Both the position numbers and the translations under genes were made by a program. Below are positions 4,888-50,821 of a stretch of 55,410 nt of DNA, one piece after another. The notes beneath the pieces are model-generated. The model searched no databases, was not told where the DNA came from, and worked only from the letters and a program-made list of their open reading frames with translations. Position 1 is the first letter of the stretch; each line of letters begins with the position of its first letter. Source of the stretch: a virus; the IMG/VR virus record IMGVR_UViG_3300031746_002172, positions 1 to 55,410 of that record; one strand, given 5' to 3'.

Positions 4888-4900
4888 TAACTAGTAATAA

Positions 4901-4957
4901 ACTGTAGCAAATAGGGTCATTCCCGAAAAGCATATTCTGAATGTCTGTTGCTACAGT
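4901..4957 (+). ncRNA. Three-way-junction structured element, copy 1 (upstream of a GIY-YIG gene)
   Basis: Outer stem P1 is ten perfect pairs, 4901-4910 with 4948-4957. Inside it lie ATA, hairpin P2 (GGG/CCC, 4914-4916 with 4922-4924, loop TCATT), the linker GAAAA (4925-4929), hairpin P3 (GCAT/ATGT, 4930-4933 with 4941-4944, loop ATTCTGA), and CTG. The same order of stems and the same junction nucleotides recur at 7400-7467 and 31434-31495 with different stem sequences, which is compensatory variation. It ends 39 bases before the start of the homing endonuclease gene. Whether it acts as RNA or DNA is unknown. Confidence 0.55.
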
Positions 4958-4996
4958 ATTATATTTCAGAACTTATTACAGAGATAAGGAGAAAAA

Positions 4997-5599
4997 ATGA
5001 ATAGCGGAATCTATTGTATTGAAAATTTAATAAATGGTAAAAAATATATAGGGAGCGCGTCTAGTTTATTCGCTAGAAAATCCGACCATTTTTATTGTTT
5101 AAAAAATAATAAACATAATAATACTCATCTACAAAGAGCATATAATAAATACGGACATGAAAATTTTATTTTTAAAATTCTAATTATTTGTGAAATATTT
5201 GAATTAAAAAAATATGAACAATTTTTTGTTGACTTTTATAAACCTGAAATTTACAACATTTGCTTGAAGTGTGTCGATTCTAGATTCGGTGTAAAAGCGT
5301 CCATAAAAACAAGAAAAAGAATTATAAAAAATCACGCCGACATCTCTGGAGAAAATCATCCGATGTATGGGAAGCATCGTTCAGAAGAAACTAAGAAAAA
5401 GCTATCGGAAATTAATAAGGGTCAAAATAATCCTAATTATGGAATTCCCAAATCAAAAGAAACAAAAGAAAAAATTTCAATAGGGAATAAAGGAAAACAT
5501 CGTTCAGAAGAAACAAGAAGAAGATTGTCTGAATCTCTGAAAGAATACTGGAGGAAAAAACATGAAGAAAACAAAGAAATCATCAACTCCTCCACTTAA
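4997..5599 (+). CDS. GIY-YIG homing endonuclease with NUMOD3 repeats (copy 1)
   Basis: A 200-residue protein. The nuclease domain shows GIY at 4-6, YIG at 17-19, catalytic-type Arg at about 27 and a Glu near 75. The C-terminal half has NUMOD3 DNA-binding motifs (GENHPMYGKHRSEETKKKLSE and relatives, each with an NPxYGxxxSxET core). Such enzymes cut a target lacking their gene and spread by repair. The gene lies between the candidate small terminase and large terminase. A three-way-junction element lies upstream. The last codons include GGAGG, which is the ribosome binding site of the terminase gene, and the two frames overlap by 38 bases. Start chosen at ATG after AAGGAG. Confidence 0.9.
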   Translation: MNSGIYCIENLINGKKYIGSASSLFARKSDHFYCLKNNKHNNTHLQRAYNKYGHENFIFKILIICEIFELKKYEQFFVDFYKPEIYNICLKCVDSRFGVKASIKTRKRIIKNHADISGENHPMYGKHRSEETKKKLSEINKGQNNPNYGIPKSKETKEKISIGNKGKHRSEETRRRLSESLKEYWRKKHEENKEIINSST

Positions 5600-7394: not shown

Positions 7395-7399
7395 ATATA

Positions 7400-7467
7400 A
7401 TTGAACGGATAGAAATTGTGTCATGAACAATTTTGAAAAGAATAATCCTAAATTCCTTCCGTTCAAT
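7400..7467 (+). ncRNA. Three-way-junction structured element, copy 2 (upstream of a GIY-YIG gene)
   Basis: P1 is ten pairs, 7400-7409 with 7458-7467. Inside are TA, P2 opened by a G-U pair (7412 with 7434) and continued by AAATTGT/ACAATTT (7413-7419 with 7427-7433) with loop GTCATGA, the linker GAAAA (7435-7439), P3 GAAT/ATTC (7440-7443 with 7452-7455) with loop AATCCTAA, and CT. The architecture matches the copies at 4901 and 31434 although the paired sequences differ. It sits 33 bases upstream of the second homing endonuclease gene and fills most of the gap after the terminase gene. Confidence 0.55.
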
Positions 7468-7500
7468 AAATATATTAGGAAATTACCATAGGAGGTAATT

Positions 7501-8136
7501 ATGCTAAAAAGTATTTATACTAAAACAGGAATTTATTGTATTGAAAATATAGTTAATGAAAAGAAATATATTGGAAAAGGAAAAAATATAACAACAAGAT
7601 GGTCTGACCATAAATGGAAATTAAAAAATAAAATTCATGATAACAAACATCTTCAAAATGCGTGGGATAAATATGGAGAAGAAAATTTCAAATTGTGGAT
7701 TATAGAAGAATGTAAAGAAAGCGAATTAATAGAAAAAGAAATTTTTTATATTTCTCTATACAATACAAAAAATACAGGTTATAATATGACAGATGGAGGA
7801 GACGGAATTCCCGGGCATATACATTCTGAAGAAACAAAAATAAAAATGTCTAATTCTCAAAAAGGTAAAAAACAAACGAAAGAACAAATAAAAAAAAGAA
7901 AAAATACAATTATAAATTGGACCGACGACCAAAAAGAAATTGCTTATATAAACAGGTCGAATGGTCACAAGAATCATATCGTTTTAGAAAAAACAAAAGA
8001 AAAATTGTCGGAATACTTTAAAAACAATCCTTCAAGAAAAAAGGGCAAATATAAACACTCCGAAGAAACCAAAAAGAAACTCTCCGAATCTTTAAAAAGA
8101 TATTGGTTAGAAAGGAGAACACAAGATGACAGATAA
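7501..8136 (+). CDS. GIY-YIG homing endonuclease with NUMOD3 repeats (copy 2)
   Basis: A 211-residue protein. GIY is at 10-12 and YIG at 23-25, with an Arg-containing helix (TTRWSDHKWKL) and the catalytic Glu in LIEKEIFYISLY. A GYNMTDGG turn closes the nuclease domain. NUMOD3-like repeats (HSEETKIKMSNSQKG, HSEETKKKLSESLKRYW) make up the C-terminal half. It lies between terminase and portal and overlaps the portal gene by 11 bases. Its final codons carry AAGGAG, the portal ribosome binding site. The N-terminus is six residues longer than in the other copies. ATG follows TAGGAGG. Confidence 0.9.
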   Translation: MLKSIYTKTGIYCIENIVNEKKYIGKGKNITTRWSDHKWKLKNKIHDNKHLQNAWDKYGEENFKLWIIEECKESELIEKEIFYISLYNTKNTGYNMTDGGDGIPGHIHSEETKIKMSNSQKGKKQTKEQIKKRKNTIINWTDDQKEIAYINRSNGHKNHIVLEKTKEKLSEYFKNNPSRKKGKYKHSEETKKKLSESLKRYWLERRTQDDR

Positions 8137-10668: not shown

Positions 10669-12585
10669 ATGAAAAAAATTAGTTTTGCAATTGAAAATGT
10701 TGAAATGATTCAGGAAAATCCTGATTCTAACTTCGCTCTTTTGGCTTTAGACTTTTTTGCTTCTGGAGATAATCTTCACGATATGTATGTTTCCGAAGAG
10801 ACACTACTTCGCACAGCAGATACAATTAAGAATTGCCCTCTTGTCTGGAAATATGATGCGGTGCTAGATGATGTCTATACACATGACCCCGAAGAGGTTC
10901 CTTGCGGTTTTGTTCCAGATAGTACTATAATCACAAGTAAAAAACTGGAAGATGGGAGGACAATGTTATCAGCCATAGCTTATGTGTGGAAAAGATATAC
11001 TGGTCCATTGTTAGGTTTCTTCAAGAGGGATGGAGGAAAAAAGCCTGTCAGTGTCGAAATGAGCGTATATAAAACTCAACCAAAAAAAGACGGAAAAACT
11101 GAACTTCTTGATTTTAGATATGAAGGGGTAACTGTTTTAGGAAGTTATGTGACTCCTGCTATACCTATGGCTAATGCAACTGTTTTGTCTTTTGCAAAAG
11201 AATATGAGGAAGATTTAGAGAAGGAATTCTCTTTCACAGAAATCATAATCCCCAAAGAAGTAAGATATGCTGTTGAAAAAGGTCTTGAAATTCGAAAAGA
11301 GGAGGGAGGTGGTACATCTACAGGTATCGCCTTTGCACGATATTTAACTAAAAATAAAATAATAACTCCCGAAAAAATAAAAGAAATTAATAATTATTTT
11401 TCCACACACAAACATAGCAGAGAAACCGTTGACTGGCTTCTTTTCGGTGGAGATTATGCAAAGGAATGGGCAGAAAATATGTCAGAAAAAATTGACAACG
11501 AACTTGTCACATTTCCTTATAAGTCAAAGGCGGATGTGAATCCATCTTTAAAGGGTATTACCCCTCCCATTTCTCTCGCCCAAGCTAATGCGATTGCTGC
11601 GCAAGCAGATTCGATTGGTTCAGATGATAAGAAAAATGGTTGGGCTATTGCAATAAGTTCGTTTAAGAAAACTCATCATGTAGAAGATGAAAAATGGGTA
11701 AAAAACGAAGGTAGTACTGTAAAAGCGTCTGCGGACGATACAGAAGATTTTATCAAGGAGGATACTATGACCGAAGAAGAAAAAATGGCAGTTGAAAAAG
11801 CCGAAGCAGATGCAAAAATGGCTGCTGAAAAAGCCGAAGCAGATGCAAAAATGGCTGCTGAGGTAGAAGAAAAAGCAAAAATGGCTGCTGATGAAGAAGC
11901 TAAGGCAAAAATGGCTGCTGAGGTAGAAGAAAAAGCAAAAATGGCTGCTGATGAAGAAGCTAAGGCAAAAATGGCTGCTGATTCAAAGGTTGCTGCTGAA
12001 AAAGCAGTAGCTGAAAAAATGGCTGTTGATGAAGCAAAAGCTAAAGCAGCAGAGGAAGCAAAGAAAAAGTTAGAAGAAGAGAAATCAAAGAAATTTGAAT
12101 TCCCCATTGAGAAATGTGGTGAAATGTTCTCAGCAGATGACGATGAAGATGATGTAAAAATGGCTAAGGTGGAATGCGCCAAAGGCAAAGAAGCAGACTT
12201 CGGAATCGTTATGAATGGTCTATTTGCAAAAATCGAAAAGCTATGTAATAAGATGGCATTAATGGCTGAAGAGAAAAAAGCATATATGGCAGAAAACGAA
12301 GAACTCAAGAAGTTCAAAGCAGAATTAGAGGGTCAACAGAAAGAGTTTGCAATTAATGAAACTTTGAAAGAACTCTCTGTGTCTGTCTATCTTCCTGATG
12401 ATGTTAAAGCAGAAATGAAAGCGGATGCCGCAAATTATACTTTAGCAAATATGGAAGCATGGAAAAATTCCTGCAAAGCAAAATCATTTGATTTTGCAAT
12501 CAGGATTCCCCAAAGCAAGGGCACTATAGAAGTTGGACTACCTTTTGGTGGTGCAACCAAGAAACAAAAAAGCCTTTGGGATTAA
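10669..12585 (+). CDS. Head maturation protease fused to capsid scaffold/core protein
   Basis: A 638-residue protein. Start chosen at ATG 10669, just after GGGAGG; the frame is open upstream but has no better site. The first 200 residues look like a prohead protease domain (KNCPLVWKYDAVLDD, EVPCGFVPDS, KPVSVEMSVY, VTVLGSYVTPAIPMA). A second domain (about 215-280: VEKGLEIRKEEGGGTSTGIAFAR through VDWLLFGGDYAKEWAE) and a third (about 290-350: PPISLAQANAIAAQADSIG) match modules I associate with phage head core proteins. The remainder is an Ala/Glu/Lys-rich coiled coil with short tandem repeats, typical of scaffolds. The protein would organise the prohead and then be processed. The catalytic residues were not identified. 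Confidence 0.7.
   Translation: MKKISFAIENVEMIQENPDSNFALLALDFFASGDNLHDMYVSEETLLRTADTIKNCPLVWKYDAVLDDVYTHDPEEVPCGFVPDSTIITSKKLEDGRTMLSAIAYVWKRYTGPLLGFFKRDGGKKPVSVEMSVYKTQPKKDGKTELLDFRYEGVTVLGSYVTPAIPMANATVLSFAKEYEEDLEKEFSFTEIIIPKEVRYAVEKGLEIRKEEGGGTSTGIAFARYLTKNKIITPEKIKEINNYFSTHKHSRETVDWLLFGGDYAKEWAENMSEKIDNELVTFPYKSKADVNPSLKGITPPISLAQANAIAAQADSIGSDDKKNGWAIAISSFKKTHHVEDEKWVKNEGSTVKASADDTEDFIKEDTMTEEEKMAVEKAEADAKMAAEKAEADAKMAAEVEEKAKMAADEEAKAKMAAEVEEKAKMAADEEAKAKMAADSKVAAEKAVAEKMAVDEAKAKAAEEAKKKLEEEKSKKFEFPIEKCGEMFSADDDEDDVKMAKVECAKGKEADFGIVMNGLFAKIEKLCNKMALMAEEKKAYMAENEELKKFKAELEGQQKEFAINETLKELSVSVYLPDDVKAEMKADAANYTLANMEAWKNSCKAKSFDFAIRIPQSKGTIEVGLPFGGATKKQKSLWD
11851..11970 (+). repeat. 60-bp tandem direct repeat in the scaffold coiled coil
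   Basis: Two exact 60-bp units (11851-11910 and 11911-11970) each encode twenty residues of the AKMAAEVEEK / AKMAADEEAK type. They are preceded by two 30-bp units encoding KAEADAKMAA. The identity at DNA level indicates recent duplication, so the helix length can probably change by slippage in register with a ten-residue period. Confidence 0.85.
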
Positions 12586-15045: not shown

Positions 15046-15732
15046 ATGATTGGCATCTATTGTATCGAAAATACTGTGAACAATAAGAAGTATGTCGGTC
15101 AAGCTATTGATATTAGTAATAGAATAATAAGACATAGAAATAGTTTGAAATATAATAGACATAGAAATAATCACCTCCAAAAAGCATATAATAGGTATGG
15201 TAAAGAAAATTTTAAATTTTCTATTATTCAAGAATGTAATGAAAATCTTTTAGATTTAATGGAAAATTATTGGATTATTGCCTACGATACTCTTAATCCG
15301 GATAAAGGATATAATATAAAAACAGCGGGAAGGAACGGAAGACATTCTAAAGAAACAAAAGAAAAGATGTCAAAATCTAGAACAGGAAAAATCCATTCGG
15401 CAGAAACAAAAGAGAGAATGTCAAAATCTTCCAAAGGAAAAGTTTTTTCAGAGGAGCATAAAAAAAATATATCTAAAAATCACGCAGATATTTCTAAAAA
15501 TAATAATCCTTTTTTTGGAAAGAAAAGAAAAATCACCTCTTCTAAGTTTTTAGGCGTATGTTTTAAAAAACCCAATAACAAATGGGTCGCTGGAATATGT
15601 TTAAATGGAAAAAGTAAATATATAGGAATTTATGAAAAAGAAGAAGATGCAGCAAAAGCATATGATTCTTATATAATCACAAATAATTTAAGCAATCCGC
15701 TTAACTTTTCATATGGAGGCGAAAATGGCTAA
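15046..15732 (+). CDS. GIY-YIG homing endonuclease with NUMOD3 and AP2 domain (copy 3)
   Basis: A 228-residue protein. GIY at 3-5 and KKYVG (a YIG variant) at about 14-18, with Arg and His in the NRIIRHR helix and Glu in LMENYWIIAYD. NUMOD3-like repeats (RHSKETKEKMSKSRTGK and two more) follow. From about residue 165 there is an AP2-type DNA-binding domain: KFLGVCF, NKWVAGICLNGKSKYIGIYEKEEDAAKAYD. AP2 domains in phage endonucleases bind the homing site. No three-way-junction element precedes this copy. The stop overlaps the next gene by eight bases and GGAGG in the last codons is that gene's ribosome binding site. Confidence 0.9.
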   Translation: MIGIYCIENTVNNKKYVGQAIDISNRIIRHRNSLKYNRHRNNHLQKAYNRYGKENFKFSIIQECNENLLDLMENYWIIAYDTLNPDKGYNIKTAGRNGRHSKETKEKMSKSRTGKIHSAETKERMSKSSKGKVFSEEHKKNISKNHADISKNNNPFFGKKRKITSSKFLGVCFKKPNNKWVAGICLNGKSKYIGIYEKEEDAAKAYDSYIITNNLSNPLNFSYGGENG

Positions 15733-16183
15733 TACAAGTTTATCTGAGATTTACGATTATTTTCTTATGACTGTTACTGATTATAGGCTCATAGATTTGT
15801 TTAATACATCTCTCCCGGATTTTGAAGATTATCTACAAAAATGGTTAGATTTTGCAATTGTAGATTTTAAAGTATGTGACCAAGACCTAAATTACAATAA
15901 TACCACAAAAGAATTCCCGGCTGAATTAAGCCGGGACAATAAAACCATCTTAGCTACGCTAATGATGAGATATTGGCTCCAAAAGGTTGTGGGAGATATA
16001 ACCCAACTAAATTTGCATATAACTGACCGAGATTTTAAGATAGCTTCTGAAGCACAAAATCTAAGAGAAAAATCAAATCATCTAAACATAGTAAAAGAAC
16101 AATGTTCTCAGCTATTACAAGATTATAGTTATAAAAGAAATGACTGGACTGATTGGTATACCCAATCATTCTCGGGGGTGTAA
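15725..16183 (+). CDS. Putative head-tail connector protein
   Basis: A 152-residue helical protein. The ATG at 15725 is preferred over an in-frame ATG four codons earlier because GGAGGCG lies just before it. The sequence (VTDYRLIDLFNTSLPDFEDYLQKW, NKTILATLMMRYWLQKVVGDITQLNLHITDRDFKIASEAQNLREKSNHLN) fits a small helical connector or adaptor, one of the rings between portal and tail. The call is from position after the capsid gene, size and helical content. It is not a recognised named family. Its expression is probably coupled to the upstream endonuclease gene. Confidence 0.55.
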   Translation: MANTSLSEIYDYFLMTVTDYRLIDLFNTSLPDFEDYLQKWLDFAIVDFKVCDQDLNYNNTTKEFPAELSRDNKTILATLMMRYWLQKVVGDITQLNLHITDRDFKIASEAQNLREKSNHLNIVKEQCSQLLQDYSYKRNDWTDWYTQSFSGV

Positions 16184-23353: not shown

Positions 23354-23818
23354 ATGGAAACATATGTATATGCATTAGATTTATCTTTAAATTCTACAGG
23401 GGTATGTATTTTTTCCAATGATGGTAAATTTGTAAAAGCATTTACCATAGATACTAAAAGCGAAAATGAAACCAAGCTTAAGCTACAAATTATTGGAAAT
23501 GAATTAAAAAAAATAGCAAAAGAATATGCGCCCGAAATACTTGTGATTGAACAAGGGTTTACTCGTTATAATCAAAGTACTCAAATGATTTTTAGAGTTC
23601 ATGGTTTAGTAAATTATTTATTTGCAGAATATGAACAGACCTATTATCCGGCATCCAGCGTAAAAAAGATAGTTGGAGGAAAGGGGAATATGACTAAAGA
23701 AGAAATATATTGGGTGATTAAAGAGAAATACCCAAAAATAAAACTTCAGAATTATGACGAGTCAGATGCTTTTTCTGTAGGGCTTACATTCTTCATTAAG
23801 AGCGGAGTTATAAAATGA
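23354..23818 (+). CDS. RuvC-like Holliday junction resolvase (poxvirus A22/phage type)
   Basis: A 154-residue protein. ATG 23354 follows GGGAGGT; an in-frame TTG four codons earlier is inside that site. The RNase H-like fold is visible with Asp9 in VYALDLSLNSTG, Glu66 in EILVIEQGF and Asp138 in YDESDAF, the acidic triad of RuvC enzymes. GGKGNMTKEE at about 108-117 is the usual basic loop. Such enzymes cut branched DNA during recombination and before packaging. It overlaps the next endonuclease gene by four bases and forms an island with it and a recombinase inside the tail module. Confidence 0.85.
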   Translation: METYVYALDLSLNSTGVCIFSNDGKFVKAFTIDTKSENETKLKLQIIGNELKKIAKEYAPEILVIEQGFTRYNQSTQMIFRVHGLVNYLFAEYEQTYYPASSVKKIVGGKGNMTKEEIYWVIKEKYPKIKLQNYDESDAFSVGLTFFIKSGVIK

Positions 23819-24531
23819 GAAAATTAGACACTTGTTCTTGTATATATTGTTTTGAAAATATAATAGATAGTAAAAAATATATAGGTCAAACTCAAGATAT
23901 AAATAGAAGATATAAGAGACACATGAGAGAACTTGAAAATAATAAATCAAATAATGTCTACTTTCAAAAGGCATGGAATAAATATGGAAAAGATTGTTTT
24001 AAGTTTTTTATTATAGAGAAATGCCATATAGACTTATTGGATGAAAGAGAGATTTATTGGATAAAAGAATTACATTCTCACTCCACAGAAAGCGGATATA
24101 ATATATCGTGGGGAGGAATCACCCCAATGAGAAATGTAATTATTACAGATGAGCATAGAGAAAAACTAAGAGTGGCTCTTTCTGGTATAAACAACCCCAT
24201 GTACGGAAAACGATTATCTAAAGAAACATTAGATAAAATATCCAAAGCACTAAAGGGAAGAGTTGTTTCCGAGGAATCAAGAAAAAAAGCAAGCAACTCA
24301 TCGTCTTGTAAAAAAAATAAAAACAATAAATTAGGATATATAGGAATAACAAAAGATAAACACAATTATTTTATAGTTAGAATTGTTAATCCTACAAATA
24401 GGAATAGAATATATTTAGGTTATTACTCGGATATCATCGAAGCTGCAAAAACTTTTGACAAATCATCTTGGGAATTTTATCATGATTTAGGTAAACTTAA
24501 TTTTCCTCAAGATTATCAAAACGGAGAATAA
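23815..24531 (+). CDS. GIY-YIG homing endonuclease with NUMOD3 and AP2-like domain (copy 4)
   Basis: A 238-residue protein overlapping the resolvase stop by four bases. The GIY motif is changed to CIY (about 9-11), while KYIG is intact, as are Arg in NRRYKRHMREL and Glu in LLDEREIYWIKEL. NUMOD3-type segments (GINNPMYGKRLSKETLDKIS) lead to an AP2-like C-terminal domain from about residue 172 (LGYIGITKDKHNYFIVR, RIYLGYYSDIIEAAKTFD). There is no structured element upstream. The last codons contain GGAG, the ribosome binding site of the recombinase gene two bases beyond its stop. Confidence 0.88.
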   Translation: MRKLDTCSCIYCFENIIDSKKYIGQTQDINRRYKRHMRELENNKSNNVYFQKAWNKYGKDCFKFFIIEKCHIDLLDEREIYWIKELHSHSTESGYNISWGGITPMRNVIITDEHREKLRVALSGINNPMYGKRLSKETLDKISKALKGRVVSEESRKKASNSSSCKKNKNNKLGYIGITKDKHNYFIVRIVNPTNRNRIYLGYYSDIIEAAKTFDKSSWEFYHDLGKLNFPQDYQNGE

Positions 24532-31428: not shown

Positions 31429-31433
31429 TAAAA

Positions 31434-31495
31434 AAGAATGGGATAGGATGACCTCATGAATCATCTGACAAGCGAGACTCCCGTTTCCCATTCTT
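31434..31495 (+). ncRNA. Three-way-junction structured element, copy 3 (upstream of a GIY-YIG gene)
   Basis: P1 is ten perfect pairs, 31434-31443 with 31486-31495, followed by ATTTTTT. Inside are TA, P2 (31446-31451 with 31461-31466, opening with a G-U pair, loop CCTCATGAA), the linker GACAA (31467-31471), P3 (GCG/CGT, 31472-31474 with 31482-31484, loop AGACTCC) and T. Order and junction bases match the copies at 4901 and 7400. It lies six bases after the tape measure stop and 25 bases before the endonuclease start. The U-tract means this copy could also terminate transcription. Confidence 0.55.
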
Positions 31496-31520
31496 ATTTT
31501 TTGGAGTACAGGAGAATAGA

Positions 31521-32345
31521 ATGGAAACAGGAATCTATTGTATAGAAAATATGATAAACAATAAAAAATATATAGGAAAATCAGTAAATATTAATAAAAG
31601 ATGGAATGCTCATAAAAGAGAATTAAATAATAATATTCATAAAAATGACCATCTTCGAAAAGCATGGTGTAAATATGGAAAAGAAAATTTTAAATTATGG
31701 ATTATAGAAAACTGTGAAGAAAATATTTTGTTAGAAAAAGAAATATATTGGATAAAGGAATATAAAACCAATAATCCGGAATTTGGTTATAATATGACAA
31801 AAGGAGGGGATGGTTCTTCCGGACGTGTTACATCAGAAGAAACAAAAATAAAATTAAGAGAATCTCATAAAAAGTTAGGCAAAGGAAGGCATCTCTCGGA
31901 AGAAACAAAAAACAAATTAAGAGAAATTAACAAAGGGGAAAATAATCCTAATTTTGGAAAACATTGTTCAGAAGAAACAAAAACAAGAATATCAAATTCT
32001 AACAAAGGAAAAACTAGGCTAGAAGAAACAAAAAAGAAAATGTCTAAAAATCATTGGGATTCATCTGGAGAAAATAATCCTTTTTTCGGAAAACATCATT
32101 CTGAAGAGACAAAAAAGAATATGTCCGAAAATCATCCTAACCGAACAGGAGAAAACAACCCTAAAGCAATACTTAAGGAATCAGATGTTTTAGATATTCT
32201 AGATTCATTTTTTATTAAAAAATTTACAAAAAAAGAAATTTCAGATAAATATTCAAAAAAATGTTCTTCTAAAAATATTAATCATATTTTAAAAGGGGAG
32301 AGTTGGAAACATATATATAATATGTTTATGGAAAAAGGAGGTTAA
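31521..32345 (+). CDS. GIY-YIG homing endonuclease with extended NUMOD3 array and C-terminal HTH (copy 5)
   Basis: A 274-residue protein. GIY at 4-6, YIG at 17-19, Arg in NKRWNAHKRE and Glu in LLEKEIYWIKEY mark an intact nuclease domain, closed by GYNMTKGGDGSSG. At least four NUMOD3 units follow (GENNPNFGKHCSEETK, GENNPFFGKHHSEETK and others). The last 50 residues (LKESDVLDILDSFFIKKFTKKEISDKYS ... INHILKGESWKHI) look like a helix-turn-helix. It separates the tape measure and distal tail genes. The final codons (MEKGG) carry AAAGGAGG, the next gene's ribosome binding site. ATG follows CAGGAG. Confidence 0.9.
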   Translation: METGIYCIENMINNKKYIGKSVNINKRWNAHKRELNNNIHKNDHLRKAWCKYGKENFKLWIIENCEENILLEKEIYWIKEYKTNNPEFGYNMTKGGDGSSGRVTSEETKIKLRESHKKLGKGRHLSEETKNKLREINKGENNPNFGKHCSEETKTRISNSNKGKTRLEETKKKMSKNHWDSSGENNPFFGKHHSEETKKNMSENHPNRTGENNPKAILKESDVLDILDSFFIKKFTKKEISDKYSKKCSSKNINHILKGESWKHIYNMFMEKGG

Positions 32346-32347
32346 AA

Positions 32348-39792: not shown

Positions 39793-41541
39793 ATGCCAGC
39801 TATACCACTTAGAGGAGACCGTTCAGCTTGGAATTCAGCATCTTACCAATCTTTACATGCAAATGATATTGACACAAGCGCAAGTGCTATACATCACAGT
39901 TTAGGTATTGGGGCTTTTCAAGCGGCATCTGGAAGCCATGTTCACGATTCAGAAGGAGGTTCTGGTTCTTCAGTAATCAATCATTCTCATTCCGGAAGTC
40001 AAGTTGGCGATGGTGGAAAATTAGGTTGGGATAATGTATGGTCAGACGCTGTACATGACCATAGTGGAAGTGCAGAAGGCGGTAAAATTACTGCATCTAA
40101 TTTAAGTAGTGGGGCGGCTGTATATGGTTCTGTATTAACAGCAGATGGTTCTGGAAGTTCTATTTGGAGTCCTACTTCCGGTACTATAACAACATTAGAC
40201 AATATTGAAAATGTATATGTTCCTGCCCCCAATGATGGGGATGTACTTTCTTGGAATGCTTCTACAGGCTCGTGGGTGGCTTATCGCCCTGTTGATTGGA
40301 GAGTTACTTTAACTCAAGATACAAACACAGATGATAGTGATAAAATATTTACAGTTCCAGAAAGTTATGAATGGCAAATATTATGGGTTTGGGTGGAATA
40401 TACATCAACAGCCACAGGGGGTACTAGGCAACTCGAAATTCAAATTCAAGATGCTAGCAGTAATGTAATTGGTCAATTTCAAACAGGGGTTACGCAATCT
40501 GGAGGACTTACTTATAAATATTTATTTGGAATTGGTGTCCCGGATTTAACCACTGTTCGTGATGATAATAATGTAACAACCCCACTAGGGGCAGCCACAT
40601 TCTTATCAGCGGGACAAAAAATAAGAATATGGGACAATAATACAGTAGATGCTTCTGCTGATGATATGGTAGTTAGAATACAATATGCGTCTCGCAATTT
40701 GAGCATAGAAGATTTCAATCCTCCTACGGGAGCTAATAATAATACTCAGTTACAAACATCTGATAAGATACAATTAATTCAATATCGTATTTTAGCAATT
40801 AATAATTCTACTCAGTTACAAACTTCTAGTAAGCCTATACTATCATGGCGCTTCATGGTATTAACAACTGATAATGCAGTACAAATACAAACTTCTGGTG
40901 TAATAACATTACCAGCACAAACTCACGGATTAATAGTTAATAACTCAACTCAATTACAAACTTTTGAAAATGTAACGCTTACCCAATATCAAATATTGAT
41001 AATACACAATATAAGTCAAAAACTAATTAGTGACAAAACAACATTATCAATAATAGAACATTCTTATGTATTACTTCAAAATATAGAAATGACTCAAACC
41101 GTTGATAATATAGAAATAACCTTATATTCAGGAGTAGATACTCAATATTCTTCTCAAACACAAACGTCTGAGAATATAATATTATTTAGCAGTTCAAAAT
41201 ATTTAGTAATGAATGATTCTGCTCAATTGCAAGCAATTAGCGATATCGGAATGATGGTTACTAACAAACCAACTTTATCAATGAAAAATGCAATTCAATT
41301 GATAACATCTAATAAGGTTACATTTAGCAATATGACCACTTTGGCAATAAATAGTTCTATTCAATCACAAAACTCCGATAAAATAATGTTAACACAAAAT
41401 CAAAAACCTCTATCCCTTAAAGATACAGATGCTAAATTAATTTCTGACAAAATAACACTACAAAATATATTATACAATGGACAATTGGGAATTAGTAATT
41501 CAAACCAAATATCTATTTCTGATAAAATAACATTGGTATAA
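39793..41541 (+). CDS. Fibre-like protein with HxH motifs and 22-residue repeats
   Basis: A 582-residue protein. The N-terminal 100 residues have three HxH motifs (HVH 49-51, HSH 64-66, HDH 88-90) in Ser/Gly-rich context, a style seen in trimeric phage fibres where HxH clusters bind metal. Residues of about 170-305 form a beta domain that is duplicated as the next gene (DDSDKIFTVPESYEWQILWVWVEYTSTATGG; AGQKIRIWDNNTVDASADDMVVR). From about 313 to the end there are degenerate repeats of the type INNSTQLQTSDKIQL, shared with the 1595-residue protein at 46034. A tail fibre or appendage role is likely. ATG follows GAGGTGAATT. Confidence 0.6.
   Translation: MPAIPLRGDRSAWNSASYQSLHANDIDTSASAIHHSLGIGAFQAASGSHVHDSEGGSGSSVINHSHSGSQVGDGGKLGWDNVWSDAVHDHSGSAEGGKITASNLSSGAAVYGSVLTADGSGSSIWSPTSGTITTLDNIENVYVPAPNDGDVLSWNASTGSWVAYRPVDWRVTLTQDTNTDDSDKIFTVPESYEWQILWVWVEYTSTATGGTRQLEIQIQDASSNVIGQFQTGVTQSGGLTYKYLFGIGVPDLTTVRDDNNVTTPLGAATFLSAGQKIRIWDNNTVDASADDMVVRIQYASRNLSIEDFNPPTGANNNTQLQTSDKIQLIQYRILAINNSTQLQTSSKPILSWRFMVLTTDNAVQIQTSGVITLPAQTHGLIVNNSTQLQTFENVTLTQYQILIIHNISQKLISDKTTLSIIEHSYVLLQNIEMTQTVDNIEITLYSGVDTQYSSQTQTSENIILFSSSKYLVMNDSAQLQAISDIGMMVTNKPTLSMKNAIQLITSNKVTFSNMTTLAINSSIQSQNSDKIMLTQNQKPLSLKDTDAKLISDKITLQNILYNGQLGISNSNQISISDKITLV
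40735..41541 (+). repeat. Degenerate 22-residue-type repeats, fibre protein
   Basis: This part encodes roughly ten imperfect units around a core of NNSTQLQTSDNI followed by a short hydrophobic strand. Spacing is less regular than in the array at 47640-49290, and several units have lost the core, so this looks like an older or decaying copy of the same array. Confidence 0.7.
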
Positions 41542-41558
41542 ACAAAGGAGAAGATATT

Positions 41559-41975
41559 ATGACTACAGCATGGAGAATTGCTCTTACTCAGGATATAACT
41601 GAAAATGATAGTGACAAAACATTTACTGTACCAATAGGTGTAGAATGGGAAATATTATGGATTTGGGTAGAATATACGTCAACAGCAACGGCTGGAATAA
41701 GGCAACTAGAAATCCAAATTATAGATACTGGAAATATAATTGCTCAATGGCAAACAGGAGTAACACAGCCCGAAGGACTTACTTATAACTATTTATTTGG
41801 TGGAGGAATTCCAGATTCTACAATAACCCGAGATATTAGTTACATAACAACCCCTTTAATGGGTGCACAGTTTTTAGGAGCAGGACAAACCATAAGAATA
41901 TGGGACAATAATGCAATTGATGCTTCTGCTGATGATATGATTGTTCGTATGGAATACGGATATCACCAAATATAA
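41559..41975 (+). CDS. Single-domain paralogue of the fibre-protein beta domain
   Basis: A 138-residue protein that repeats almost the whole beta domain of the upstream fibre-like protein: NDSDKTFTVPIGVEWEILWIWVEYTSTATAG, RQLEIQI, QTGVTQPEGLTYNYLFG and AGQTIRIWDNNAIDASADDMIVR. It lacks the HxH N-terminus and the repeats. A stand-alone copy could occupy a separate position on the appendage, or be a product of gene duplication followed by loss of the ends. ATG follows AAAGGAG. Confidence 0.65.
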   Translation: MTTAWRIALTQDITENDSDKTFTVPIGVEWEILWIWVEYTSTATAGIRQLEIQIIDTGNIIAQWQTGVTQPEGLTYNYLFGGGIPDSTITRDISYITTPLMGAQFLGAGQTIRIWDNNAIDASADDMIVRMEYGYHQI

Positions 41976-41990
41976 AAGGAGGAGTTTATT

Positions 41991-42998
41991 ATGACTAGAA
42001 TATTCACAGAAGGCGCAGAAATGCAGGATACTGTATTTTGGAGCGGATTATACCAGGTTGTGACAATTGGTAATACCACACCGTTTGCAAGTTCTTATTA
42101 TTATCATTATGGATATGACGTGGGCTCATGGAAAAACTTTACTGCCATCTCAGAATGTTACGCAAGAGTAAGATTGAGAGTAAAGTCCCATTCACAAGGT
42201 CATACATTTATATCTTTCAGACTAAGCAGCACCACAGTCGCTTATATAGCGGAAGATGCACTAAACCGCTGGATAGCAAATGTAACAACGGTGGGTGTAG
42301 TTGGCACATCCGTAGGAGTAATCATACTCAACAGTTGGTGTCTTCTTGAAGTATATTTCAAAGAAGCCAATGCTCCCAATGGTCGGTTCGTGCTCAGTGT
42401 AGATGGAAATATAGTCATTGACTATACAGGTGATACTCAGCCAGCAGCCGACACTACATTTGATAATGTCTACTTTCGGTCAGCCAGTACTAATGACAGC
42501 TTTGATATAGACGACCTCGCTCTCAACAATACCAGCGGACTCATGGATAATAGTTGGTGCGGGGATGGGATTGTTGTAAAAATTACTCCTAGTGGTTCAG
42601 GTACTGTAAATAACTGGTCAAATAGCGGTAGTGTTTCCGGAAGTGCTAATTATCTTTATGTAGATGAATATCCTTCTGATACTACTACATATACTTATTG
42701 TTCCGCAAGTTCTACTGGTGTTAAAGATAAATATGCCATGAGCAATCTTGGTGGAGGAATAGGAAGTATTACCCGTATATTTTCAGAAGCAAGGATTAAA
42801 AAAGAAGTAGCCGATTCAACTACAATTAAGTTAGGATATCTTCCGAATGGAGGAACAGATACAATGAGTGGTTCGGTTGCTCTTTATACAACATATGCAC
42901 AAGCAATAGGAACTAGTGCCAGTGCTAATCCGGTCACAGGACTTGCATGGACTGTAGCTGATGTTAATGCCCTAGAATATGTTATAGAGATGAGTTAA
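41991..42998 (+). CDS. LamG/jelly-roll-like virion protein, paralogue 1 of 2
   Basis: A 335-residue protein opening MTRIFTEGAEMQD. The N-terminal 180 residues resemble a laminin-G/concanavalin-like sandwich, with the telling segment WCLLEVYFKEANAPNGRFVLSVDGNIVIDYTGDTQ. The C-terminal half (DNSWCGDGIVVKITPSGSGTVNNW ... NPVTGLAWTVADVNALEYVIEM) is a second beta domain often found in phage structural proteins. Concanavalin-like domains commonly bind glycans. The next gene is a close paralogue. ATG follows AAGGAGG. Confidence 0.65.
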   Translation: MTRIFTEGAEMQDTVFWSGLYQVVTIGNTTPFASSYYYHYGYDVGSWKNFTAISECYARVRLRVKSHSQGHTFISFRLSSTTVAYIAEDALNRWIANVTTVGVVGTSVGVIILNSWCLLEVYFKEANAPNGRFVLSVDGNIVIDYTGDTQPAADTTFDNVYFRSASTNDSFDIDDLALNNTSGLMDNSWCGDGIVVKITPSGSGTVNNWSNSGSVSGSANYLYVDEYPSDTTTYTYCSASSTGVKDKYAMSNLGGGIGSITRIFSEARIKKEVADSTTIKLGYLPNGGTDTMSGSVALYTTYAQAIGTSASANPVTGLAWTVADVNALEYVIEMS

Positions 42999-43012
42999 AG
43001 AGGAGGGATAAT

Positions 43013-44014
43013 ATGACTAGAATATTTACTGATGGCGCAGAGATGCAGGATATAAGTTTTTGGGATATAACGCTTGGTGTTTCTGTAGCATCAGCTACTC
43101 CAGCTATAAGTCCTTATTACTATATTAACAATGCTCAACAAGCCTATAAAAACTTCGCTGCATTATCCGAATGCTATCTTAGAGTAAGATACCGAAGCAA
43201 TAATGTTAATAATACAAGCCCTGCATTTCCTAGTTTCAGGCTTGACGCAACTGTCGTCGCTGCATTAAAGTTCAATGCAACTGGTCATTTTCAAGCTTCC
43301 GTTACTACTGTAGGAGTAGTAGGAACTTCCCTTATGGTAGCCGATAATAACACATGGTATCTAATTGAAGTATGGTTCAAAGAAGATAATGCTCCTAATG
43401 GAAAGTTCGTAGTTTATGTGGATGGAAATCTGGTAATTGACTATACAGGTGATACTCAACCCGCCACAGCAACTACATTTAATAATTTTTATTTTGACCA
43501 AAACGGGGGAGTTCAAGGAATGTATGACGACCTCGCTTTGAATGATACTGCCGGGGTTGTGGATAATAGTTGGTGTGGGGATGGAATTGTAGTAAAAATC
43601 ACTCCTAGTGGTTCGGGTACTGTCAATAATTTTCTTAACAGCGGTAGTACTTCTGGAAGTAGTAATTATACTTATGTAGATGAATTTCCAAGTGATGGAG
43701 ATACAAGCAATGTTTACGTCTCTGCAAGTTCTACTGGTGATAAAGACCAATATAGGATGAGCACTTTTGATGGTGCAGGGAAAAATATACTTCGAATTTA
43801 TCCAGAAACTAGAATTAGAAAAACAAGAGGAGATAGTTCGACTATAGAAGTAGGTTATCTTCCTAGCGGGGGTACAGACCAATTATCAGGTTCACAAACT
43901 GTTGGTATAGCCTATAGTGCAGTAGTAGGGACTAGCGCTAGTGCCAACCCGGTTACAGGTCTTGCGTGGACAGCTTCTGACCTAAATTTGTTAGAATATA
44001 TTATTAAAAAATAA
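43013..44014 (+). CDS. LamG/jelly-roll-like virion protein, paralogue 2 of 2
   Basis: A 333-residue protein that follows the same plan as the preceding gene from MTRIFTDGAEMQD to NPVTGLAWTASDLNLLEYII. The second domain is most conserved (DNSWCGDGIVVKITPSGSGTVNN nearly identical), while the glycan-type N-terminal domain has diverged. This pattern suggests duplication with different binding preferences, or proteins of a hetero-oligomeric appendage. ATG follows AGAGGAGG. Confidence 0.65.
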   Translation: MTRIFTDGAEMQDISFWDITLGVSVASATPAISPYYYINNAQQAYKNFAALSECYLRVRYRSNNVNNTSPAFPSFRLDATVVAALKFNATGHFQASVTTVGVVGTSLMVADNNTWYLIEVWFKEDNAPNGKFVVYVDGNLVIDYTGDTQPATATTFNNFYFDQNGGVQGMYDDLALNDTAGVVDNSWCGDGIVVKITPSGSGTVNNFLNSGSTSGSSNYTYVDEFPSDGDTSNVYVSASSTGDKDQYRMSTFDGAGKNILRIYPETRIRKTRGDSSTIEVGYLPSGGTDQLSGSQTVGIAYSAVVGTSASANPVTGLAWTASDLNLLEYIIKK

Positions 44015-46033: not shown

Positions 46034-49000
46034 ATGGCATACTCTCATGATATATTTTTATGGGATTCAGGAAATACCTTTGGTATCAAACTTAGTGAAC
46101 AAGGTCTCAGTCTTGTTGTCAACAGCACTAATCAAGCACAATATTCCCAACCAGTAGGGATTGCATTAAGAGTTAACGATACAACTCAAGCAATAACATC
46201 TGAAAACCCAATAATAAATAGTCATAATCCCGGCAACACTGTTTTAAGTAAAGTCGGTTCTTTTAATGCGGATACCGTCAAAAACATAGGAGAAACACAG
46301 GCAATCAGTGGAATTGGTTTCCAACCTAAAGTTGTTTTGTTTTGGTGGACAGGTTCACATAGTACAATAGATGCTGTTGTCAAAAACAATTCCAATAATG
46401 GATTTGGTGTGGGAACCAGTGCTTCTAGTATATTTTATGTAGATATATCTCTGCAAGACGCTACAACAACATCACTTACCAGTTCAGCAATGTCAGGAAC
46501 TAATGTAATAGGTATATATAGTGATTATGATAGTCTCGGTGGAGAATTCAATTTACAATCAATGGATTTAGATGGATTTACTCTCATTGTTAATACTAAA
46601 TTTGTTAATGATTATCGTATCTCTTATCTCGCTCTCGGGGGTGATGAATTAAAAGAAATATATGTTGGTAGTTTAAATACCCCTACAAGTTTAGGAAATT
46701 ATACTACAAGTGTAGGCTTTAAGCCTGATGCAATTATATTTGCAAATACTGATAGTACATCTGATATATATCGAACAGATGCAAAATTTCAAATTGGATG
46801 GGCTGCTTCAAATGGCGGACAGGGAACTATCGCAGGAGAAAGTAACTATTTAGGTGGAACCAGTAATACAATGGCTTATGGATATGGGGGAGAAGTTATT
46901 ACGTCTACAACAGTAGCTGGCACTCCGGGAACTATCGGATTAAGAGAATCTTTTGTTGATTTTACCAATAATGGGTTTATATTAAACCATCTTGAAGGTG
47001 CAGCAAGCAGACTTATACATTATATCGCTTTTAAAGGTGGAATTTATCAAGTAAATCAATTAAACACAAGAACAGACACAAATCTAGAATTTAATACCTT
47101 GGGTTTTAAACCATCTGCTGTATTGTTTGCATCTATAGGACAACCCCAATGTACTCAGGATATACCTATAGTCGATAACAGAATATCTATAGGCGCAATG
47201 GCAAATAATATAGATACTTCTATTACCCAGGCTGTTACCGCAATGGTTGATGTAGACAACTTAGGTACTATGTATGTTTATAACGCAAATTATGATACTG
47301 CTGTTTATGCAAATATACATCAATATGAAAGTTCGGCAGTATATTTAATGGATGTTCCCTATGTAGCAACAAATGGTTTTTACACAAAAACGAGTATTGT
47401 AGATAATGCCCGAAACTGGGTTACATATCTTGCTATTGGTGGAAATCCGAGAATAGGGGAACATATACTACTAGTTAACAATGCTGTCCAAATACAAACC
47501 AGTGAAAATACAATTTTAGTTCCTCTTATCAATTTTTATCAAAGTAATGCTGCTATAATGGTTGAGTATGAAGTAGATTCTTATATGCTAGTAAGTAATG
47601 CAGCAATAATGGTTGAATATAATTTACATGTAGATTTGTTGGTCAATGATGTAACTCAATTACAGACATCTGATAATGTAATAATAACCTATATTCCAGA
47701 GCCTCTGACTTTAACAATACAAGATACAACCCAATTACAGACATCCGATGATGTAATAATAACCTATAATCTGGAAATTCCAGATTTAATAATACAAGAT
47801 ATAATACAATTACAAACTTCTGAAAATATAATATTAACCAGTCATTATAATATAGCTTATCAAACTAATTCCGCTATAATTATTGAATATACAAATTTAC
47901 CTAGTGCAACTTTAACTAGTGCAGCTATAATAGTTGAATATACAAATTTACCTAGCGCAACTTTAACTAGTGCTGCAATAATGGTTGAATATAACCTTCG
48001 TTTTAGCTTAATAGTTCAAGACATTACTCAATTACAAACAAGCGATAATATAACTTTTATTATGGCTATTGTATTTACTATTCAAGATTCGGCACAATTA
48101 CAAAGTTCCGATAATGTAAATCTAATTCAACATTATCTTTTAACAATTAACAATATTACTCAATTGCAAAATAGCGATAATATAAACTTAATTCAACATT
48201 ATCTTTTAACAATTAACAATATTACTCAATTACAAAATAGCGATAATATAAGTTTAACTCAACATTATGTATTAACAATTAATAATTCTACACATTTACA
48301 AGCTAGTGATAATATAAGTTTAACTCAACATTATTTACTAGCGATTAATAATTCTACACATTTACAAACCAGTGATAATATAGATTTAACTCAACATTAT
48401 CTTTTAATAATTAATAATACTTCTCAAATTTTAATTTCTGATAATATAGATTTAATTCAACATAGTGTATTAGCAATTAATAATTCTACACATTTTCAAG
48501 CCAGCGATAATATAAGTTTAACTCAGAACAATATATTAATAACTAATAATGTTACTCAAATACAAGTTGTTGATAATATAATATTAAATTATCATGCAGA
48601 AGAAGCATTTGTCCTAGAAATACAAAACGGAACACAGTTGCAAATATCGAGTAATATTATTTTAACCCAATATTATATATTATCAATAAATAATTCTATT
48701 CAATTGCAAGCATGTGATAATATAATATTAACTCAACATCACACACTTTCAATAAATAGCACTATTCAACTGCAAATTTCCAATAATATAAATCTTGTCC
48801 AAAATTATATATTGTTAATTAATAATACAACACAATTACAAAATTCAGACAATGTAATATTAATTCAACATCAAATTCTAATTAGCAATAATGCCATACA
48901 ATTACAAATATCAGGCAATATATTATTAATTCAAAATCAAGTTTTAGTTATTAATAATGTTATACATTTACAAATTTCTGGCAATATACTATTAACACAA

Positions 49001-50821
49001 CATTATAATCTAACAATCAGCTATTCAACTCAATTACAAGCATCTGACAATGTAGTATTAACACAGCATAATATCTTATCTATCTTAAATGCTACTCATT
49101 TGCAATTTTCGGATAATGTACAAATACTTACAGTTGGAATTTTAGGAGTTCATGATTCTACTCAACTACAGTTATGTAATAATGTAATAATAACAGGACA
49201 CGGAGAATCTTTTAGTTTAATAATCAACAATACAGCACAAATACAAACATCAAATAATATCTCTTTAACTTTCTATACTGCTCCCGAAAGTGGTCCATAT
49301 TTTTCTAAGGTTGGTAGTTTTAATATTGATACAAGTAAAACAGTAGGGCAAACTCAATCTATTAGAGAATTAGGATTTCAACCAAAAGTTATTTTATTCT
49401 GGTGGCATGGGAGCACATCAATAATCAATGAAGTTTCGGGAAGTACAATCAGTTTTGGTATTAGTTCAGCTACAAGTGGTACTAATAGAGGCATGCATAT
49501 TTCTATATCAGAAGACAACCAAGCTTCAACAGATGCATATAGTTATTCGTCTGCTGTAGAAATTGTTCGTATATATACAGACACCGATACCATAGATGGA
49601 ATTCTTGATTTTTATTCGATAGATTCAAATGGTTTTACAGTTATTGTAAATGACCAGTTTACGAAAACATATCGCATAAATTACTTAGCACTCGGAGGTT
49701 CTGATGTAACAAATGCCCGTGTAGGTTATGATACGTTCCCCGTTCCTACTGGAAATAAGAGCTACACAGGTGTTGGATTTAAACCGGATGCGGCATTATT
49801 CTTTACAGGATTTACAGCTTCTCTACCTCTCGGGAGCCTTCAGGTTTATCATAGTATTGGTATGGCAACAAGTAGTTCTAATCAAGGTGTAATCTCAACA
49901 ACCACAGCAGACAATCAAACCACATCTAACGCAAGGGGTTATGGAAATAATCAAGATGTTACTGCTAATTTAACATTTAGTTCTACCACATGCTCTAGAC
50001 GTAATTCGTTTGTATCATTTGATAACGATGGTTTTACTTTAAATAATATGGATGGTGCAGCAGCGCTTTATTTCTTTTATGTGTGTATTAAAGGTGGTAG
50101 GTATAGTGTTGGAGATTTAACAACTGTTACAGATGGAAGTGATATTGTTGAAACTGTTGGTTTTAAACCTAAAACATTATTATTTATGAGTGCTAATCGT
50201 GCCCATAATACTAGAGATGTAAACTCAGTACAAGGTTCTATGAGCATAGGGGCTGCAACTTCTACTAGTAATCGTATAGCATCTTCTTTTTGGAGTGAGA
50301 ATGGTCTTCCAGATACAGAAACAGCTTTTTCTGTTTATGATGATGCTGTTTATGTTAACATAAAAGACGATGGTGTTATAGGAAAGATGGATTTAAAATC
50401 TCTTGATTCTACTGGTTTCACAACAGTTATGGATACCCCTGACCCGTCCGGTTGTTGGGTTATGTATTTAGCAATAGGGGAATCAGTTATTAAAAATGCA
50501 ATACAAATCCAAACTGCTACTAATATTACAATAGTATATAACCCTCTGACCCTAGTGATGAATAATTGTTCGCAAGTTCAAACAGGGGATAATCTTAGAA
50601 TAGAAACAAATATACATATAATAATAGCCCAAGCTTCTGTTCAAATACAATTTTCTGATAATATCAGAATAGAAACAAGTATATATATGTTAGGAATGAT
50701 TATCGATTCTACTCAAATTATAACATCAGAAAATATACTTCTTGGAAGTGGTACTAAAAAATATATATATGCCCATAGAAAGATATCATTTGGAATTGGT
50801 AAAAAAGGCGTTGGAATATAA
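46034..50821 (+). CDS. Giant repeat-containing virion appendage protein
   Basis: A 1595-residue protein in three parts. Residues of about 71-470 hold a tandem of beta domains beginning KVGSFNADTVKNIGETQ and including GFQPKVVLFWW and GFKPDAIIF strands. Residues of about 470-1085 are an array of 22-residue repeats with core INNSTQLQTSDNISL. Residues of about 1090-1485 repeat the first part (KVGSFNIDTSKTVGQTQ, GFQPKVILFWW, GFKPDAALFF). The C-terminus has a few more repeat units and a basic end. The duplicated globular ends around a repetitive shaft suggest a long fibre or adhesin. ATG follows GGGAGG. Confidence 0.65.
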   Translation: MAYSHDIFLWDSGNTFGIKLSEQGLSLVVNSTNQAQYSQPVGIALRVNDTTQAITSENPIINSHNPGNTVLSKVGSFNADTVKNIGETQAISGIGFQPKVVLFWWTGSHSTIDAVVKNNSNNGFGVGTSASSIFYVDISLQDATTTSLTSSAMSGTNVIGIYSDYDSLGGEFNLQSMDLDGFTLIVNTKFVNDYRISYLALGGDELKEIYVGSLNTPTSLGNYTTSVGFKPDAIIFANTDSTSDIYRTDAKFQIGWAASNGGQGTIAGESNYLGGTSNTMAYGYGGEVITSTTVAGTPGTIGLRESFVDFTNNGFILNHLEGAASRLIHYIAFKGGIYQVNQLNTRTDTNLEFNTLGFKPSAVLFASIGQPQCTQDIPIVDNRISIGAMANNIDTSITQAVTAMVDVDNLGTMYVYNANYDTAVYANIHQYESSAVYLMDVPYVATNGFYTKTSIVDNARNWVTYLAIGGNPRIGEHILLVNNAVQIQTSENTILVPLINFYQSNAAIMVEYEVDSYMLVSNAAIMVEYNLHVDLLVNDVTQLQTSDNVIITYIPEPLTLTIQDTTQLQTSDDVIITYNLEIPDLIIQDIIQLQTSENIILTSHYNIAYQTNSAIIIEYTNLPSATLTSAAIIVEYTNLPSATLTSAAIMVEYNLRFSLIVQDITQLQTSDNITFIMAIVFTIQDSAQLQSSDNVNLIQHYLLTINNITQLQNSDNINLIQHYLLTINNITQLQNSDNISLTQHYVLTINNSTHLQASDNISLTQHYLLAINNSTHLQTSDNIDLTQHYLLIINNTSQILISDNIDLIQHSVLAINNSTHFQASDNISLTQNNILITNNVTQIQVVDNIILNYHAEEAFVLEIQNGTQLQISSNIILTQYYILSINNSIQLQACDNIILTQHHTLSINSTIQLQISNNINLVQNYILLINNTTQLQNSDNVILIQHQILISNNAIQLQISGNILLIQNQVLVINNVIHLQISGNILLTQHYNLTISYSTQLQASDNVVLTQHNILSILNATHLQFSDNVQILTVGILGVHDSTQLQLCNNVIITGHGESFSLIINNTAQIQTSNNISLTFYTAPESGPYFSKVGSFNIDTSKTVGQTQSIRELGFQPKVILFWWHGSTSIINEVSGSTISFGISSATSGTNRGMHISISEDNQASTDAYSYSSAVEIVRIYTDTDTIDGILDFYSIDSNGFTVIVNDQFTKTYRINYLALGGSDVTNARVGYDTFPVPTGNKSYTGVGFKPDAALFFTGFTASLPLGSLQVYHSIGMATSSSNQGVISTTTADNQTTSNARGYGNNQDVTANLTFSSTTCSRRNSFVSFDNDGFTLNNMDGAAALYFFYVCIKGGRYSVGDLTTVTDGSDIVETVGFKPKTLLFMSANRAHNTRDVNSVQGSMSIGAATSTSNRIASSFWSENGLPDTETAFSVYDDAVYVNIKDDGVIGKMDLKSLDSTGFTTVMDTPDPSGCWVMYLAIGESVIKNAIQIQTATNITIVYNPLTLVMNNCSQVQTGDNLRIETNIHIIIAQASVQIQFSDNIRIETSIYMLGMIIDSTQIITSENILLGSGTKKYIYAHRKISFGIGKKGVGI
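47640..49290 (+). repeat. Array of 66-bp (22-residue) repeats in the giant appendage protein
   Basis: About 25 units encode INNxTQLQxSDNIxLTQHYxL. Some adjacent units are almost identical in DNA, for example those at 48125 and 48191, exactly 66 bases apart, while others have diverged strongly. Each unit reads as two short beta strands with polar turns, which would suit a beta-solenoid or stacked-hairpin shaft. Related but poorer repeats occur at 40735-41541. Confidence 0.88.

Follow-up and report, generated by a model that had tools for sequence, protein, structure and literature searches.

The window, by which we mean the whole 55.4-kb stretch of a virus record that was analyzed, encodes a TerL related to those of SP-beta-like phages and, according to Pfam, five homing endonuclease genes (HEGs) of the GIY-YIG/NUMOD3 type, which start at positions 4997, 7501, 15046, 23815 and 31521. 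A search of the window with a covariance model (R2, described below; filters off) retrieved exactly three copies of a structured element, each on the same strand as a GIY-YIG/NUMOD3 ORF and just upstream of it, with E-values of about 1e-10 or better; the next match was the antisense of copy 3, with 21 bits, and all the others had 14 bits or less. An earlier, sequence-only reading had placed three such copies at these same sites and with this scheme of stems, and both the search and the inspection of the sequence bore it out. The features of the three units, all on the plus strand, are as follows:

4889–5548 (+): mobile unit 1, comprising a 12-nt leader, the RNA and a GIY-YIG/NUMOD3 HEG, inserted after the preceding gene's stop codon (4887) and ahead of the terL Shine-Dalgarno (SD) site
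4901–4957 (+): copy 1 three-way junction; P1 4901–4910/4948–4957, P2 4914–4916/4922–4924, GAAAA 4925–4929, P3 4930–4933/4941–4944, P3 loop (L3) 4934–4940; R2, 41.8 bits
4965–4971 (+): copy 1 decoy (putative pseudoknot strand) TTCAGAA, a 7-nt complement of L3 TTCTGAA
4979–4982 (+): copy 1 SD-side match, weak (CAGA), in the loop of the hairpin CTTATT/GATAAG
4997–5599 (+): GIY-YIG/NUMOD3 homing endonuclease gene 1 (Pfam)
7395–8125 (+): mobile unit 2, element plus HEG 2, separating the stop codon of terL from the start codon of the structural gene that follows
7400–7467 (+): copy 2 three-way junction; P1 7400–7409/7458–7467, P2 7412–7419/7427–7434, GAAAA 7435–7439, P3 7440–7443/7452–7455, L3 7444–7451; R2, 62.0 bits
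7475–7480 (+): copy 2 decoy TTAGGA, pairing with L3 TCCTAA
7489–7493 (+): copy 2 SD copy TAGGA, inside the SD TAGGAGG, in the loop of the hairpin AATTACC 7481–7487/GGTAATT 7494–7500
7501–8136 (+): GIY-YIG/NUMOD3 homing endonuclease gene 2 (Pfam)
31429–32347 (+): mobile unit 3, element plus HEG 3, between the tape-measure stop codon and the DUF6558 tail gene
31434–31495 (+): copy 3 three-way junction; P1 31434–31443/31486–31495, P2 31446–31451/31461–31466, GACAA 31467–31471, P3 31472–31474/31482–31484, L3 31475–31481; R2, 42.3 bits
31503–31507 (+): copy 3 decoy GGAGT, pairing with L3 ACTCC
31511–31514 (+): copy 3 SD copy GGAG, 6 nt upstream of the ATG
31521–32345 (+): GIY-YIG/NUMOD3 homing endonuclease gene 3 (Pfam)

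The R2 search of the window found no element before the other two GIY-YIG/NUMOD3 genes (15046–15732 and 23815–24531), which show the usual tight junction with the preceding gene. The second of these overlaps the end of a RuvC-like gene and may use translational coupling instead of an RNA.

For model R2 we used 22 phage elements, two of which (L010 and L497) bridge to a known RNA family; it replaced a first model, R1, which had three rows and no tail and missed diverged copies. Further elements were gathered with a structure descriptor, pattern scans and R2; the descriptor returned many chance matches when applied without a pseudoknot, and with it the real elements scored at least 22.8 (one, 20.3) vs. 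a maximum of at most 21.6 for shuffled sequences. The consensus is P1 (6–11 bp), TA, P2, GAMAA, P3, (C)T and P1′, and the sequence of the three stems varies freely while their pairing is preserved. In the 22-row alignment there were double-sided changes at 17 of the 18 pairs, and the covariation score was 0.93, vs. at most 0.18 with the partners slid, although this score is an upper bound because structure, through hand-coded rules, guided the alignment, and pair counts lean towards it. The P2 closing pair was G-Y in all 22 rows (G-U in 16, G-C in 6). The selected, covarying structure of the sequence-only reading is thus well founded, as are its TA and GAMAA junction bases, with GATAA or GAAA also occurring, and the G-Y closing of P2; conversely, P1 is not always exactly 10 bp, and TCAT in the P2 loop, taken for a constant feature, is one among several loop types. 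A hammerhead-like reading of the GAAA junction was discarded, as we found no CUGANGA core, and the elements had no match to any known ribozyme family in Rfam.

Comparison with related phages revealed sites lacking each of the three units. In the near-identical phage G001, window positions 4888 and 5549 are adjacent (contig 70958/70954), so that unit 1 is missing as a whole, with its HEG, RNA and 12-nt leader; this site is also empty in L586 and L589. The site of unit 2 is empty in L581, L586, L591 and L593, where the terL stop codon leads directly into the next gene, and is occupied by a diverged unit 2 in L584, L585 and L595, while in L603–L607 the tape-measure gene leads directly into the tail gene with no unit 3. 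The joint absence of element and HEG at all three sites indicates that the two make up a mobile cassette with the RNA at its 5′ end; the element lies within 5–12 nt of each unit's left end. Additionally, in G003 a copy-1-like RNA precedes a copy-2-like HEG and a copy-3-like RNA precedes a copy-1-like HEG (L200, minus strand, 15687–15748 and about 12040–12100), indicating that RNA and gene can recombine. At the junction of terL with the next gene, L587, L594 and L597 conserve the 3′ end of a HEG-like frame, the cassette body and the RNA being gone; this C-terminal remnant was apparently retained as the source of the SD for the following gene.

The position of the element so near the left end of each unit could also suggest a feature acting at the DNA level, i.e., a structure for cleavage, recombination or replication that moves the cassette. 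We give this very little credence, since the sequence of the stems is free as long as pairing is kept, orientation and ORF spacing are fixed, and homing as known requires the nuclease alone; likewise, the frequency of G-U pairs, as seen in the closing of P2, favors RNA.

The expectation of additional copies in related phages was borne out by the R2 search. The 20 R2 matches that were fetched were all followed by a same-strand ORF of at least 147 aa, 11–76 nt past the end of the match. Among 36 downstream ORFs scanned there were 13 of the GIY-YIG type, 7 with DUF4379, up to ten from several HNH families, in counts that can overlap, and one helicase-like ORF; in Proteobacteria the element precedes integrase-adjacent ORFs of no known function. 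The RNA is therefore tied to mobile GIY-YIG cassettes, as first proposed, but is not specific to them. The helicase-like ORF (weak DEAD match), preceded by the RNA at positions 3127–3185 of L051, is the sole phage case clearly unlike a nuclease. HEGs lacking the element are common, and two scans of 200 sources, mostly GIY-YIG loci, yielded few additional carriers, indicating that the RNA is confined to a subset of HEG cassettes. Eleven isolate phage records, chosen for HEG homologs, a related terminase or an int-alpA match, gave three matches, all weak (E 0.004–0.03), and one int-alpA-like sequence was read by eye in Klebsiella phage P12620-1. Some elements are located in phage tRNA arrays, so an upstream translated gene is not required. 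The contigs of L497 and L485 contain long tRNA arrays interrupted by RNA-bearing HNH cassettes; L497 also encodes tmRNA, and L485 a class A RNase P RNA.

In being a small, structured RNA at the end of a cassette that mobilizes a nuclease gene, the element resembles the HEARO/omega RNAs found with IscB, and on this analogy it had been suggested that it might be a guide, which would make it a guide or scaffold RNA of the nuclease. Omega RNA, however, is the guide scaffold of one nuclease family, whereas the phage element accompanies many unrelated, stand-alone nucleases (GIY-YIG, HNH or DUF4379) and has no guide segment. The analogy is left without support because none of these partners is of the IscB/TnpB type, with RuvC and HNH; moreover, the element lies inside the cassette, an adjoining variable guide was not seen, and the element is missing from two of this phage's five GIY-YIG genes. 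This reading is thus disfavored, and we regard it as extremely improbable.

Besides the three-way junction, the sequence-only reading had missed two features, a pseudoknot between L3 and a downstream segment and a complement of L3 over the SD. L3 is complementary to a segment situated 5–12 nt 3′ of P1, designated here the decoy, with which it can form the pseudoknot, and the sequence of the decoy recurs over the SD site of the downstream ORF. The L3/decoy pairs differ widely: ACUCC/GGAGU in the copy 3 group, UCCUAA/UUAGGA in copy 2, UUCUGAA/UUCAGAA in copy 1 and L010, AAUCCGA/UCGGAUU in L485, UAGCCUC/GAGGCUA in L202 and UCCUUG/CAAGGA in L573. Examples of the SD-side copy are TCGGATTTCGGAAG (L485), GAGGCTAAAGAGGCAAG (L202), ACAGGG...ACAGGGAG (L574) and TGAAGGcgctTGAAGGAG (int-alpA L330); its end is typically 5–10 nt from the start codon, with a median of about 7. 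The three strands can change together at one site, as in copy 2 (L3 UCCUAA, decoy UUAGGA, SD UAGGAGG) and its counterpart in L584 (UCCUGA, UCAGGA, CAGGAGG).

Overall, L3 matched its own decoy better than those of other elements (277 vs. a mean of 175.8; 0/2000 shuffles) and, likewise, its own SD (228 vs. 179.5; 0/2000). Permutations within groups gave 0/2000 for the decoy and 1–2/2000 for the SD copy, and an independent set of 17 elements outside the model gave 0/5000 for each, although these counts are not exact probabilities because related sequences are not independent. Part of the L3-SD match is also to be expected, as L3 resembles a general anti-SD, and the SD copy is frequently just 4–5 nt long; in copy 1 and L010 the second match to L3 is of 4 nt and off the SD core. 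By sequence, L3 could pair with the SD of the HEG behind it, weakly in copy 1, as would be expected of a leader that controls the ribosome binding site (RBS). A complement of at least 5 nt downstream of L3 was present in 22 of 24 int-alpA-type elements, which were found by pattern without any pseudoknot condition (shuffled mean 3.75, maximum 9). The lengths of P1 and of the linker were inversely correlated (r = −0.61; 0/5000), in a trade-off that is inflated by the greedy extension of P1, and they add up to 16.6 ± 1.4 nt; such a constant distance from junction to decoy is what a pseudoknot would demand. In int-alpA and in phage leaders with a long spacer, the SD copy is often located in the loop of an additional hairpin or adjacent to it, with a hairpin score of at least 4 in 19 of 25 int-alpA and 8 of 24 phage elements.

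An Rfam search of the whole window gave no match, and since the three copies are below the gathering cut-off of int-alpA (RF02996; 35.8 bits), we consider them as diverged relatives of this family and not members. Nevertheless, they have the int-alpA consensus fold, P1-UA-P2-GAAAA-P3-CU-P1′; two phage elements exceed the cut-off (L010, 35.9 bits; L497 10560–10629, 40.8 bits), and R2 reciprocally finds 13 of 25 int-alpA loci from Proteobacteria at E < 0.05 (best, 1.3e-7). From these sequence comparisons, the phage element belongs within an int-alpA superfamily; therefore, the RNA is not wholly new and represents an HEG-associated phage variant. The phage elements differ from int-alpA in being AU-rich, with the inner P1 pair mostly A-U, a shorter P3 and often GACAA or GATAA, and in preceding HEGs rather than int-adjacent ORFs; the window copies lie between phage structural genes and HEGs, instead of between the integrase and alpA. 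A search of the phage collection with the int-alpA consensus returned mostly short chance matches.

Genuine int-alpA elements from E. coli score 55–65 bits, and the gene order there is integrase, int-alpA, an ORF of ca. 310 aa and alpA; these ORFs had no Pfam match and matched one PHROG, of unknown function. As in the phage elements, int-alpA has a decoy downstream of L3 and an SD copy, both absent from the Rfam model, which suggests that the gene it controls is probably the ca. 310-aa ORF and not alpA. The family is reportedly derived from a 2017 paper on 224 candidate RNAs.

Rfam assigns int-alpA to the type "Gene; sRNA", and a paper that names it includes it among predicted small RNAs. The Rfam type, together with the precedent of AbiF, in which an RNA precedes the gene (PMC12373285), would be in line with a small RNA acting in trans or an antitoxin-like RNA binding the gene product, as in type III toxin-antitoxin or AbiF-like systems. 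We see a rather slim chance of this, because the same element occurs with unrelated proteins (GIY-YIG, HNH, DUF4379, no known function), L3 fits the SD of its own ORF, and neither a repeat array nor a terminator-like site was found near the copies. Instead of the tandem repeats and the toxin RNase partner of type III systems, we found a single element with partners of the DNA endonuclease type.

Of the early suggestions that the element could regulate, guide or mark the mobile unit, the first fits best: we consider it likely that the element is a cis-acting 5′ leader of mobile HEG cassettes that controls translation of the following ORF. Pairing of L3 with the decoy during transcription would create a pseudoknotted domain and leave the SD free; when this domain is disfavored, L3 would act as an anti-SD and turn the ORF off. 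Such a leader could set the level or the timing of a potentially harmful nuclease, and int-alpA would be the same device on integrase-adjacent accessory ORFs. The predicted L3-decoy duplex is on average stronger than that of L3 with the SD (−6.2 vs. −4.5 kcal/mol), which suggests that ON would be the default state.

No promoter or terminator above chance was found at the copies, and expression of the cassettes thus probably depends on read-through. A transcription terminator or attenuator, with P1 and a U-rich linker halting read-through, might be deduced from the T-rich linker 3′ of P1 in several copies (ATTTTTT in copy 3). However, many linkers are not T-rich (AAATATA in copy 2, ACTCTT in L309), no terminator-like site was called at the copies, and termination here would cut off the essential genes downstream of the cassette; we hence disfavor this function as very improbable. 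The intercistronic position in a read-through operon, and the combination of a junction with an L3-downstream pseudoknot, could also correspond to an element for mRNA stability or processing, either as a barrier to exonucleases or as the mark of a cleavage site, which would protect the mRNA of the HEG and of the downstream structural genes. The flaviviral xrRNA, which we take to be topologically alike, likewise has a three-way junction whose L3 pairs downstream of P1. Even so, this role is unlikely: it leaves unexplained the covariation of L3 with the SD-side copy and the SD spacing, and to our knowledge E. coli, a host of int-alpA, has no RNase J-type 5′-3′ exonuclease, which also counts against it.

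Control of translation by the leader agrees with what is known of other phage HEGs. In T4, the RBSs of I-TevI/II/III, segB and mobE are sequestered by RNA structure (PMC2988022), so the need for such control has precedents, although the device is different. In both cases an RNA structure lies just 5′ of the HEG, and it limits translation in T4 and would do so here; conversely, the T4 structures hold the RBS in a stem, whereas the loop of a pseudoknotted junction could here choose between decoy and SD, and the leader is common to several HEG families. Gene seg43(25) of Aeromonas phage 25 also has a stable structure immediately 5′ of its RBS, which does not contain it, but this is a single hairpin with no anti-SD loop or decoy reported (PMC2988022).

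These analyses offer a testable function for the orphan family int-alpA, to which they add a pseudoknot and an SD-matching switch strand not recorded before, and describe one leader RNA that is common to several unrelated families of phage HEGs and moves with them. Translational control of selfish genes may therefore be widespread and modular instead of peculiar to T4. With more doubt than confidence, we also contemplate a widespread class of switches in phages and Proteobacteria, in which an anti-SD loop on a junction sensing a ligand or protein would pick decoy or SD; the conserved junction bases are compatible with a putative ligand-binding aptamer. It would be a plug-in 5′ module of unrelated selfish genes, which would restrict the translation of many HEGs to one shared condition of phage or host. 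Should the switch respond to a signal, this would amount to a new natural switch of translation that could be attached to any gene.

The comparison with G001 also revealed that terL is there interrupted near codon 175 by a 1.1-kb insertion (L007 485–1592, corresponding to window 6082/6092), which contains a LAGLIDADG-like ORF (553–1359) and a structured-looking 3′ part; it looks like an intron, and an Rfam search for a group I intron gave no match at the cut-off. Both L583 and L587 have terL insertions near the same codon. In the same comparison, window positions 40297–44004 and 47592–49164 appeared as internal duplications of the tail region.
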